Assembly: GCA_028290905.1 (NCBI GenBank)
Contig: JAQGIW010000272.1
Location: 1 to 40,603, forward strand
Reading direction: 5' to 3'
Source: Caulobacteraceae bacterium
GTDB lineage: Bacteria > Pseudomonadota > Alphaproteobacteria > Caulobacterales > Caulobacteraceae
DNA length: 40,603 nucleotides
The notes below the pieces were generated by a model. The model was given only the letters and a program-made list of their open reading frames with translations. It made no database searches and was not told the DNA's origin. Positions 8,496-40,327 of the stretch are shown here, in pieces. How positions within the stretch are numbered: position 1 is the first letter of the stretch; each line of letters opens with the position of its first letter. The translations under genes and the position numbers were made by a program.

Positions 8496-8852
8496 ATGGC
8501 GCTCTCATCCCGTGACATCAGCAAGCAGCGCGCCAGTCGCGTGCGACGTCGCCTTCGGGCGGTGTCCAAGGGTCGGCCGCGCCTGTCGGTGTTCCGCTCC
8601 TCGAAGAACATCTACGCCCAGATCATCGATGATCTGGCGGGGGTGACCCTGGTCGCCGCCTCCTCCCTCGAGGAGGGCAAGGGCGCCAAGGGCGCCGACC
8701 GCGAGGCCGCCGCCAAGGTGGGCGCGCTCGTCGCCCAGCGGGCCCTGGAAAAGGGTCTCAAGGACGTTGTCTTCGACCGCGGCGGCTACATTTTTCATGG
8801 GCGCGTCAAGGCGCTCGCGGAAGCCGCCCGCGAAGCCGGCCTGAACTTCTAA
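8496..8852 (+). CDS. rplR: 50S ribosomal protein L18
   Basis: L18 binds 5S rRNA together with L5. The 118-residue product (E. coli 117) shows [20 protein letters not shown] and the C-terminal [26 protein letters not shown]. It begins three bases after rplF and ends ten bases before rpsE, whose ribosome binding site is AAGGAAC. Confidence 0.98.
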
Positions 8853-8862
8853 GGAACATAGA

Positions 8863-33662: not shown

Positions 33663-35513
33663 ATGGCCGAAACCGCTGAGCCGGAAGCATCGGAAGAGGT
33701 CCAGGCGGCCTTCGACACCGGGGCCGCCGCCATGGCCGCGGCGCTCGACGAGGCGCGCGAGGACCCGTCGCTGCGCGACGAGGTGGCGGCCTTCTTCCAG
33801 GCCCAGCGCCGGCTGATCGAGGCCCAGGCCCATCACCTCCACGTCCAGCTCCGCCAGCTCCACCTCAAGACGGTCAGCGATGTCGTCAAGCTCGCCCTGC
33901 TGCTGGCCAGCCTCGTCGCCCTGCTGGCCCTGGTCGCGGCCGTGGGAACCATGGTCCGCGACGCGATGAACGATCACGGCCTCGTCATCGAGCGCTTCAC
34001 CGCCCCGCCCGACCTCGCCGCCCGCGGCTTCACCGGCGAGGCCCTGGCCGAGGACCTGCTCGGCCGCATCGACGCCGTCCGCCGACAGGCCAACAACAAT
34101 TCGATCACCGTTTCGGACGACGTGCGCTCCGGCGGCGCGGACACCCTCAAGGTCGAGATTCCCCAGACCGGCCTGTCCCTGGACGAGGTCAATCACTTCC
34201 TTCACGCCCAGCTCGGCCACGCCCGGCGCCTGACCGGCGAGGTGGCCAGCGACGGGGCGGGGCGCGTCGTCCTCAATCTCCACCTCTCGCGATCCGACCC
34301 GATCCGGATCGAGGGCCCCTCCGACAACCTCGAGCCGCTGCTGCAGCAGGCGGCGGAGCGGGCCTTCGCGGCCTTCGACCCGGTCAACTACGTCCTCTAT
34401 CTTCGCAGCCTGGGCCGCGACGAGGACGCGCTGGCGGTCGCGCGGCGAAACGTCGAGACCGCGAGAACGCCGTTCGAACTGGCGGGCGCCCTTTCATTGG
34501 ACGCGAACTCGACCGGAGATCGACGCCGGGCTCTCATGCTCGCCAGACTGGCGATCGAGACCGACCCGAAACAGTGGGGCGGCTGGGGCGAGGCCGCGAC
34601 GGCCAGCGCCGATCTCGGCCATGACGAGGACGCGCTGAGATACCTTGCGGCCCTTCTGAAGGTCAGGATCAGGGACCAACTGCGCAATCACCGGCTGTCG
34701 ATGCCGTACATATTCCGGGGCGCGCGCACCCGGATGGACGCGGCGGTCGGCGATTTCCAACAGTACGCCAGGGACTTGGCGGTCAAGGTTCCGAACGACA
34801 CCAACGACAGCACGGACCGCCTCCGCGCCAGCGCCGAAGCGTTGGCGGGCCAGCATGATTGCAACGCCGTGGGCCGCGCCCTCCTGCTCGCCCAGGCCGT
34901 GGGAACCCTTTCTCCCGCCACCACCGACTTGGCCCAGTCGCGCCTGGCGCGTTGCCTGAACGACGCGCCGGCCGCATTGGCGGCGGCCCAGGCCCTGGTC
35001 GCGGCCCATCAGCAGGCTCTGGCCAAGGCCTCCGCGAACGAGACGAGTCGTGTCGAGCAGAGGCTCCAGACCGCCGACCTGCCCCTGCTGGCCAAGGCGC
35101 GCGCGATGGCCGGCGACGTCGCCGGCGGCGAGGCCCTGATCGCGACGACGCCCCTCGACTGCTACCTCTGTGTCCGGGTGCGGGGCCAGGTCGCCGCGCT
35201 CGCACGCGATTGGCGCGCCGCCGACCGCTGGTTCGCCGAGGCGACGCGCCAGGCGCCCTCCCTGCCGGCCGCCTACGCCGAGTGGGGCGAGGCGCGTCTG
35301 GCCCGCGGCGACCTCGACGGCGCCATCGCCAAGTTCGCCCTGGCGCATGACCGGGGACCTCGCTTCGCCGATCCGCTGAAAGGGTGGGGCGACGCCCTGG
35401 CTCGCCAGGGCCGCTGGTCCGAGGCCAGGCAGAAATACGACGAGGCCCTGGCCCTGGCGCCGGCCTGGCGAGATCTGATCCGCGCCCGCGCCGCCGCCGG
35501 GCGGCTCGCCTGA
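33663..35513 (+). CDS. Membrane-anchored tetratricopeptide-like repeat protein
   Basis: The 616-residue product has an N-terminal acidic, helical part (1-70, likely cytoplasmic, coiled-coil-like QRRLIEAQAHHLHVQLRQLH), one membrane helix (about 76-98, KLALLLASLVALLALVAAV) and a large C-terminal part. Residues 235-330 and 500-610 hold TPR-like helix pairs (YLRSLGRDEDALAVARRNVE, WGEARLARGDLDGAIAKFAL, WGDALARQGRWSEARQKYDE). Cys residues in TPLDCYLC could pair if periplasmic. Function is unknown; a scaffold role is the usual one for such repeats. A short ribosome binding site (AGGGGAA) precedes the ATG. Confidence 0.82.
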   Translation: MAETAEPEASEEVQAAFDTGAAAMAAALDEAREDPSLRDEVAAFFQAQRRLIEAQAHHLHVQLRQLHLKTVSDVVKLALLLASLVALLALVAAVGTMVRDAMNDHGLVIERFTAPPDLAARGFTGEALAEDLLGRIDAVRRQANNNSITVSDDVRSGGADTLKVEIPQTGLSLDEVNHFLHAQLGHARRLTGEVASDGAGRVVLNLHLSRSDPIRIEGPSDNLEPLLQQAAERAFAAFDPVNYVLYLRSLGRDEDALAVARRNVETARTPFELAGALSLDANSTGDRRRALMLARLAIETDPKQWGGWGEAATASADLGHDEDALRYLAALLKVRIRDQLRNHRLSMPYIFRGARTRMDAAVGDFQQYARDLAVKVPNDTNDSTDRLRASAEALAGQHDCNAVGRALLLAQAVGTLSPATTDLAQSRLARCLNDAPAALAAAQALVAAHQQALAKASANETSRVEQRLQTADLPLLAKARAMAGDVAGGEALIATTPLDCYLCVRVRGQVAALARDWRAADRWFAEATRQAPSLPAAYAEWGEARLARGDLDGAIAKFALAHDRGPRFADPLKGWGDALARQGRWSEARQKYDEALALAPAWRDLIRARAAAGRLA

Positions 35514-38877: not shown

Positions 38878-39414
38878 ATGAAGATCAAGTCCCTGGGTCA
38901 CGTCGTGCTGCGGGTGACCGACTGCGCGCGCGCCGAACGGTTCTACAACGGCGTGCTCGGCCTCCCCATCTGCGCGCGCTTCGATGAGAACGGGATGAGG
39001 ATGACCTTCTTCAGCCTTGGAAATCATCATGATTTCGCCGTCGTGGAAGTCAGCGGGGAGGGCAGCAGCGACAGCGAATCCGCCGTCGGGCTGTACCATG
39101 TGGCGTTCAAGATCGGCGACGACATCGAGGACCTGCGCGAGGCCAAGGCGAAGCTCGAGGCCGCCGGCGTCACGCCCACCCCCATCGACCACGAGGTGAC
39201 CAAGTCGCTCTATTTCTCCGACCCGGACGGCAATGGCCTGGAACTCTATGTGGACGCCTCCGACTCCTGGCGCCGCGACCCCAGCGCGTCGCCCAGCTCG
39301 CCCCCCTGGAGCTGTAGAGCGCATTCCGAAGAGCGGGAGCCGGCTTTCGGATTAAACGCACGTCAAAACAAAAACCTGGAGCACCAATCTGATTCCATCA
39401 GATCGGTGCTCTAG
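38878..39414 (+). CDS. VOC (glyoxalase-like) protein with repeat-derived C-terminal tail
   Basis: The 178-residue frame starts MKIKSLGHVVLRVTDCARAE and holds a complete VOC domain: FYNGVLGLPICARFDENGMR, LYHVAFKIGDDIEDLREAKA, KSLYFSDPDGNGLELYVD. Possible metal ligands are His8, His74-region residues and Glu in GLELYVD. The family normally ends near residue 130-145. Here the frame continues from about 39316 through a family B repeat (SCRAHSEEREPAFGLNARQ) to a stop inside that repeat. In another frame CTGGAGCTGTAG would stop at 39315, so a small indel probably removed the native end. GGAGGGTGACGTC precedes the ATG. Confidence 0.85.
   Translation: MKIKSLGHVVLRVTDCARAERFYNGVLGLPICARFDENGMRMTFFSLGNHHDFAVVEVSGEGSSDSESAVGLYHVAFKIGDDIEDLREAKAKLEAAGVTPTPIDHEVTKSLYFSDPDGNGLELYVDASDSWRRDPSASPSSPPWSCRAHSEEREPAFGLNARQNKNLEHQSDSIRSVL
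39316..39414. repeat. Dispersed intergenic repeat, family B
   Basis: It begins GAGCGCATTCCGAAGAGCGG and GAGCCGGCTTTCGG, then has an A-rich spacer (CAAAACAAAAACC) and ends with the palindrome ATCTGATTCCATCAGAT flanked by GAGCACCA and GGTGCTC. It shares both modules with 36104-36187. Confidence 0.75.
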
Positions 39415-39458: not shown

Positions 39459-39499
39459 TTGACTCCCGTGGGTCCTCGGCATGAGAACAAACAGAGAAC
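39459..39499 (+). promoter_or_regulatory. lexA box: Promoter with LexA (SOS) box
   Basis: GAAC-AAACAGA-GAAC at 39485-39499 matches the alphaproteobacterial LexA site GAAC-N7-GAAC (GTTC-N7-GTTC on the other strand) exactly. TTGACT at 39459-39464 gives a -35, and a -10 near 39482-39487 would overlap the box, the normal place for repression. The box lies upstream of the small gene at 39523. Confidence 0.75.
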
Positions 39500-39522
39500 A
39501 TTTCACCCCGAGGCTTCCCATC

Positions 39523-39741
39523 GTGCTCACCCGCCGGATCGACCAGGCTCTCGAGGCGCTCATCCTTTGCCGGGAGCGCCTGCCGTTCCTGCGCGACCTC
39601 TACCGGCCGGGAAGCCCCGAACGCCGCGCCCTCGACGCCGTACTGGAGGACCTGCGCCGGGCCGACCACGCGATGACCCATCGCTGCGAGCCCCCGACGG
39701 CCTGCCCCTGCGCCGCTCCGGGCGCCCGCCCCGGCCCGTGA
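39523..39741 (+). CDS. Small helical protein, likely SOS-regulated, unknown function
   Basis: A 72-residue product is read from GTG at 39523 (VLTRRIDQALEALILCRERL), with GAGG nine bases upstream. An ATG at 39481 would add 14 residues, but that ATG lies inside the promoter and LexA box, so it is unlikely to be used. The chain is helical and amphipathic up to residue 52 (ERRALDAVLEDLRRADHAM), then ends in a Cys/Pro-rich tail (HRCEPPTACPCAAPG) with three Cys. I recognise no family. It resembles neither known Caulobacter SOS division inhibitor (SidA and DidA are membrane proteins). The next gene starts 16 bases after its stop. Confidence 0.6.
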   Translation: MLTRRIDQALEALILCRERLPFLRDLYRPGSPERRALDAVLEDLRRADHAMTHRCEPPTACPCAAPGARPGP

Positions 39742-39757
39742 GCGGAGGAGAGGAGGC

Positions 39758-40327
39758 GTGGACGTGGGCTTCGACGGCCTGGCGAAGGGTTGGACGGTGC
39801 GGGGCGGCGTGGTTTCGCCGGGCGAGCGGGTGGCCGACTACGCGGCCCGCGAGCAGGGCGTGCAGGGCGTCTGCCGCGGCCGCGGCTGCTCGCGCCGCCT
39901 CGACCTGGAGCCGAAGGCGCTCGGCGCCGTCGGCCTGGGCCTGCTCTCCATGACGGTGGTGAAGAAGATGTGGCAGTGCCAGCGCCCGGACGGCTGCCGC
40001 CTCGACTACCACGACACCGCCCCCGAGGCGCCCCTGCGCCTCTCCCAGTTCGTCGGCCGCGCCAATGTGCGCCTGCGCCTGCGCTGCGGCGGCCAGGGCT
40101 GCAAATTCCACCGCGTCTGGCGCGTCGAGGAGATGATCGCCGGCCTGAAGAAGCGCGGGCAGGGGAGCGAGGCCACCCAGGTCGACAAGCTGGGGGGCAT
40201 GATGACCAGCCCATGCCCCCTGTGCAAAGAGGCCGGCTGGACGGCCGAGGTCCTGTGGGTGGATACCGGCTCGATGGGCTGGAAGGTCAACGGCGAGCGC
40301 TCGTTCGACCGGTTGGCAAGCGGCTGA
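39758..40327 (+). CDS. Putative zinc-binding protein with four Cys-pair motifs
   Basis: The 189-residue product starts at GTG 39758, with GGAGGAGAGGAGG upstream. Cys pairs occur at regular spacing: CRGRGC (39-44), CQRPDGC (74-80), CGGQGC (109-114) and CPLC (152-155), with nearby His and Tyr. Two to four zinc-ribbon-like knuckles are likely. ATQVDKLGGMMT lies between. I recognise no named family. It sits 16 bases after the small SOS-type gene and probably shares its LexA-controlled promoter. A DNA- or RNA-binding role is only suggested by the zinc-ribbon pattern. Confidence 0.72.
   Translation: MDVGFDGLAKGWTVRGGVVSPGERVADYAAREQGVQGVCRGRGCSRRLDLEPKALGAVGLGLLSMTVVKKMWQCQRPDGCRLDYHDTAPEAPLRLSQFVGRANVRLRLRCGGQGCKFHRVWRVEEMIAGLKKRGQGSEATQVDKLGGMMTSPCPLCKEAGWTAEVLWVDTGSMGWKVNGERSFDRLASG

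Follow-up and report, generated by a model that had tools for sequence, protein, structure and literature searches.

The window analysed here (40,603 nt) is the whole of contig C248, one of 317 contigs of a 5.23-Mb Caulobacteraceae genome, and two adjacent genes on its plus strand lie close to the contig end, which comes 276 bp past the second. A LexA-type box, GAACAAACAGAGAAC (GTTCTCTGTTTGTTC on the opposite strand; 39485–39499), ends 23 bp upstream of gene 1 (39523–39741, GTG start), encoding a 72-residue two-helix protein according to alignment and AlphaFold2. Gene 2 (39758–40327, GTG start) follows after 16 bases and encodes a 189-residue protein, double zinc-ribbon-like from its Cys pairs and from profile comparison. 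By eye, a possible -35 element (TTGACT; 39459–39464, plus strand) lies 20 nt ahead of the box, and possible ribosome-binding sites precede gene 1 (GAGG; 39510–39513) and gene 2 (a purine-rich stretch; 39744–39756), both on the plus strand. The initial annotation of this DNA had described a GAAC-N7-GAAC box at 39485–39499, a 72-residue ORF and, 16 bases on, a second ORF with four Cys pairs, all of which are present. Its placing of the box over a plausible -10 is weak: a sigma-70 consensus scan found no promoter at the box or at TTGACT. Between a glyoxalase-like gene and the box lies a 33-base near-perfect palindrome (39379–39411), found once in the window and giving a terminator-like match on the minus strand.

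The start of gene 1 is most likely GTG 39523, since its relatives of the same subtype (A, see below) start at this position (MLTRKID.../VLTRRID...; 24-row alignment); an 86-aa ORF from ATG 39481, beginning just ahead of the box, is probably not the real gene. Cys residues are found at positions 16, 55, 61 and 63. Cys16 is invariant in 10/10 subtype A rows, and the Cys-rich tail is absent from the aligned relatives. The AlphaFold2 model (mean pLDDT 74.7, pTM 0.49) shows two helices with a tail of low confidence; Foldseek found no match to this model at E ≤ 0.001 and the best VIA-align result (Z 6.2, 52 aligned, rmsd 2.8) is not a convincing structural match. The highest 19-residue hydropathy is 0.49 for gene 1 and 1.29 for the most hydrophobic of 24 aligned members of its family (the helix family), none of which is as hydrophobic as a membrane helix. 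The dN/dS of gene 1 was 0.31 against one relative (a copy in genome G034) and that of gene 2 was 0.45, 0.41 and 0.84 against three relatives (the highest value for the most distant of them), values that support the coding status of both genes.

The Cys pairs of gene 2 (39/44, 74/80, 110/115 and 153/156) form two units. The first (Cys39/44 and 74/80; 39872–39997, plus strand) is absent or decayed in the relatives L002 and L004, and the second (residues 94–167, Cys110/115 and 153/156; 40037–40258, plus strand) has homology to a family of ribbon proteins. Compared by hhalign with a profile of 14 ribbon relatives, mostly Phenylobacterium-type, the second unit scored a probability of 97.4% (E 1.3e-11), and hmmsearch found the gene 2 frame at E 9e-9 with this profile and at 7.8e-6 with a mixed ribbon profile; the Cys are invariant across the 14 relatives. 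AlphaFold2 was confident only for about residues 90–170 of gene 2, and its model had no Foldseek match at E ≤ 0.001 and no convincing structural match by VIA-align (best Z 2.5, 50 aligned, rmsd 3.4). Close relatives of gene 2 are present in 3/60 related genomes (own genome counted) and in 1/385 genomes of the class, which is the own genome, and a scan of named genomes gave none; the double-ribbon protein is seen only in its own genus. One relative (L003, genome G011) has its own box just ahead of the start, and another (L002, genome G002), in which the first Cys unit is missing, continues directly into a gene of the SRAP family. Upstream of this shortened relative, a PIN-domain-like gene (just below cut-off) and a small ORF are found on the opposite strand (L002:1969–2851). 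Elsewhere in the genome of the window there are also truncated and fragmentary copies of gene 2 (L033:279–725 on contig C31, and L166 on contig C55).

No family in Pfam, PHROGs or NCBIfam matched the protein of gene 1 or gene 2 at E ≤ 1, and as far as these three libraries go the pair is undescribed, as first supposed; the helix profile likewise matched nothing in NCBIfam. The library matches of relatives were no more than weak: DUF951 (E 0.0007), HypA (0.0085 in one scan and 0.00099, in 4/18, in another), Zn_ribbon_10 (0.0052), DUF6244 (0.0069), Zn_ribbon_3 (0.0049) and families of RNA polymerase subunits (0.00043 and 0.0021). Among solved structures searched by sequence, gene 2 had no match up to E 1, and the best matches of the ribbon profile (E6 proteins, E 0.034) and the helix profile (a designed protein, E 0.0043) were not taken as homology. 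A phage origin was considered and rejected: neither the window proteins nor the 14 ribbon relatives matched a PHROG, and viral contigs held no relative by the gene 2 profile and one by the helix profile. This one relative (L171:5001–5216) is preceded by a box at -72 and closes a fragment of a viral contig from IMG/VR that carries ORFs resembling phage tail genes (by eye).

The box has the form GTTCN7GTTC, the same operator as that given for the Caulobacter LexA regulon (consensus in PMC4211646; example boxes in PMC12700426). On its own it is no rarer than chance in the window, where GAACN7GAAC has three matches against 1.07 expected (three being reached in 9/100 shuffles; the remaining two at 8843–8857 and 34465–34479), and conservation is the deciding point. 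In the whole genome, a tighter motif (GTTCN5TTGTTC) has 15 matches, against four for the reversed control. The next ORF was scanned at nine of the 15 sites, five sites being unassigned and one the window's own. Pfam families matched over the cut-off were Y-family polymerase, SSB, MmcB and PHP/polymerase III alpha, known types of SOS gene whose place behind the motif favours LexA control, as well as glyoxalase and DUF763, with radical SAM and 2'-5' RNA ligase matches below it, and one ORF resembling ImuA by eye was without a Pfam match.

Relatives of gene 1 were collected by protein profile alone and their upstream DNA was then checked for GAACN7GAAC/GTTCN7GTTC. A profile built on gene 1 together with its first relatives matched in 36/249 genomes of the family, and a wider helix profile in 21/299 genomes at order level, where a second family is represented, and in 3/133 genomes at class level, own genome counted. 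The helix family comprises subtypes A (MLTRKID...) and B (MVKVRYxG...RPFGPDYLI...AAYHFT), whose apparent unity rests on a moderate hhalign score (probability 90.5%, E 1.3e-6, 48 columns). A box was found within 150 bp upstream of 44/49 helix-family genes, compared with 0/49 for the reversed control and about 0.4 expected in 49 (background 8 matches in 160,042 bp, or 0.0075 per 150-bp window), and the sequences of the boxes upstream of helix genes are of 31 distinct kinds. The same searches yielded 11 further helix genes, seven with a box within 150 bp. The initial annotation had proposed looking for the box at orthologous loci, and there it is indeed conserved, preceding 51/60 helix-family genes from two families of the order (9/60 without) and often ribbon genes too. 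Five of the 49 are without a box in that range: at L069 a box with one mismatch lies at -30, at L134 an exact one lies at -221, and L072, L090 and L091 have no exact box within 350 bp (0.23 matches with up to one mismatch expected per 350 bp). In 11 public-collection loci, which overlap the genes counted above, the box lies within 91 bp in nine and at -334 in two; of two class-level matches beyond the order, the one examined (L290) has it at -95. Genome G034 carries four near-identical helix-gene copies with boxes (L026–L029), which are not independent because they have their upstream DNA in common. TTGA[CT], counted without a control motif, occurs up to 40 bp upstream of the box at 19/44 helix-family genes, at 18–19 nt in nine of these, and at 1/16 ribbon genes.

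The ribbon family reaches further. Its mixed profile matched in 70/249 genomes of the family (E ≤ 0.001) and 24/289 of the class (E ≤ 1e-5), and a class-level ribbon profile, which aligns with that of the 14 relatives (probability 94.2%, E 1.1e-7), in 33/190 genomes. Ribbon genes of Caulobacteraceae (CxxC...CxxC) have a box within 150 bp in 16/25 loci (control 0/25; background 0.018), and two of the nine without an exact box (L146 and L148) have a one-mismatch box near. Across Alphaproteobacteria, a box lies within 200 bp in 17/30 sampled loci (control 0/30; background 0.011). Because both families often keep a LexA box in related species, the gene pair probably belongs to the damage response.

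The two families are joined in a minority of loci. A ribbon gene directly follows the helix gene in 7/49 loci (six by script rule, plus L069, where the frame start falls outside the rule) and precedes it in 0/49; no recognised ribbon gene follows at the other 42. Of the two-gene unit first claimed, adjacency at 16 bases stands for the window, but across relatives the arrangement is that of a variable module. Four Caulobacter loci have no recognised ribbon gene and instead a glyoxalase-like ORF after the helix gene (by eye). An SRAP gene (PF02586; HMCES/YedK) stands last in the order box, helix, ribbon, ribbon, SRAP in L009 and L108/L084, and in the order box, helix, ribbon, SRAP in L164, and it follows the gene 2 relative in L002. 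None lies beside the pair in the window, where 276 bp remain, and most SRAP genes of relatives are unlinked to the module. The SRAP family gave 67 matches in 60 relatives, of which 65 were examined. Thirty of these, which are the top-scoring matches apart from two, are without a box and without a same-strand ribbon gene nearby. Among the other 35, a ribbon gene is present at five (L203, L210, L231, L232 and L002) and a box at nine, in the interval between 1.3 kb upstream and 0.3 kb inside. The SRAP link is thus limited to a lower-scoring, divergent minority. The SRAP gene of the own genome (contig C188) has no box or ribbon gene in the 171 bp present upstream. In genome G198 the helix gene is followed by a short ORF, SRAP-like by eye (tblastn E 9e-5, no Pfam match), which was not counted.

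The nearest precedent is provided by two Zn-ribbon-like domains in SRAP (DUF159)/Ku neighbourhoods, reported by Aravind and co-workers in 2013 (PMC3765255). They resemble the present ribbons in being small, paired-Cys predicted Zn ribbons in SOS-linked neighbourhoods, next to SRAP in their case and, for the present ribbons, at some loci of relatives, but the passages on those domains mention neither a helix protein of this kind nor a LexA box, and the likeness is one of description. No recognised description of the helix or ribbon family was found in the literature searched; supplementary tables of the Caulobacter regulon may already list a homologue.

Control of the gene pair by LexA is very probable on this evidence, and the reading that we favour, LexA control of an accessory module on the repair side, has as a whole a probability of about 0.6. 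RecA activated by damage would lead to cleavage of LexA and its loss from the box at 39485–39499, inducing both genes. The double zinc-ribbon protein of gene 2, presumed to hold zinc through its Cys pairs, would probably bind DNA that is damaged or single-stranded, or else a repair protein on such DNA; nucleic-acid binding, as first suggested, fits a zinc ribbon. The two-helix protein of gene 1 would probably serve as an adaptor or regulator of the gene 2 protein, and the pair would represent one version of an SOS cassette of Caulobacterales, to which a few genomes add an SRAP gene of the HMCES/YedK type. Weighing against this reading are the nine helix genes without a box, the patchy spread of the helix family, the 42 loci without a ribbon gene behind the helix gene, the minority position of SRAP as a partner, the missing sigma-70 consensus at the box and the lack of a convincing structural match for either model. 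SRAP proteins of this kind cross-link to abasic sites, and to our knowledge few bacterial partners of SRAP in abasic-site handling have been recognised. The addition of an SRAP gene in a few genomes is a hint that the cassette acts on abasic sites or stalled forks, and loci with a helix or ribbon gene ahead of SRAP point to abasic-site handling, though a DNA/SRAP mechanism for the pair itself, with SRAP as putative partner, is rather doubtful. More broadly, and tentatively, the pair may belong to an unnamed LexA-controlled module of Alphaproteobacteria, in which widespread zinc ribbons and a Caulobacterales two-helix partner would work with a divergent SRAP protein that protects or processes abasic or single-stranded DNA, the window holding a double-ribbon version.

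A chance match, leaving the genes outside LexA control, would account for the count of three boxes against 1.07 in the window and for the absent consensus promoter, but not readily for boxes at 51/60 relatives found by profile with 0/49 in the reversed control; given this conservation, it was set aside as improbable. A second possibility accepts LexA, but as an induction cue for a mobile or selfish accessory module (as in conjugative elements or prophages) rather than for a host repair factor. The patchy spread (36/249 genomes), the helix relative on a viral contig and the incomplete copies of gene 2 in the own genome agree with it, as do the four near-identical G034 copies, the sole one examined (L026) lying near genes for a TraI-type helicase, a DUF6118 protein and a HEPN/nucleotidyltransferase. 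Against this, the same glyoxalase-like ORF after the helix gene in four Caulobacter loci (by eye) suggests a stable chromosomal place, boxed ribbon relatives occur in many alphaproteobacterial families, and the window contig carries ribosomal protein genes (by eye), so that a mobile module appears unlikely.

Two small, closely spaced and patchily distributed genes behind a LexA-type box might also be a LexA-controlled toxin-antitoxin-like pair. This seems scarcely probable, as the helix gene is without a recognised partner in 42/49 loci and the window proteins gave no match to a toxin or antitoxin family. Least probable of these alternatives is an SOS division inhibitor like SidA or DidA. SidA and DidA are likewise small, damage-induced Caulobacter proteins, with LexA control given for SidA (PMC12700426), but for DidA a single transmembrane helix is reported (PMC4211646), in contrast to the helix family, in which hydropathy peaks at 1.29 (0.49 in gene 1). 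For the same reason the checkpoint factor suggested in the initial annotation finds no support.

Beyond the proposed LexA-controlled accessory module in Caulobacterales, many alphaproteobacterial families have small CxxC...CxxC proteins (L236–L258 and L260–L287) that are a candidate class-wide SOS family extending past the window. Many LexA targets are without an assigned role, and the two box-carrying families offer a short list of candidate damage-response genes. Four SRAP genes (L209, L222, L225 and L226) have a LexA-type box 0.3–1 kb upstream and no same-strand ribbon gene. In the genome of the window, three further box-preceded genes are candidate LexA targets (L049, L096 and L097: DUF763; 2'-5' RNA ligase, below cut-off; and glyoxalase).
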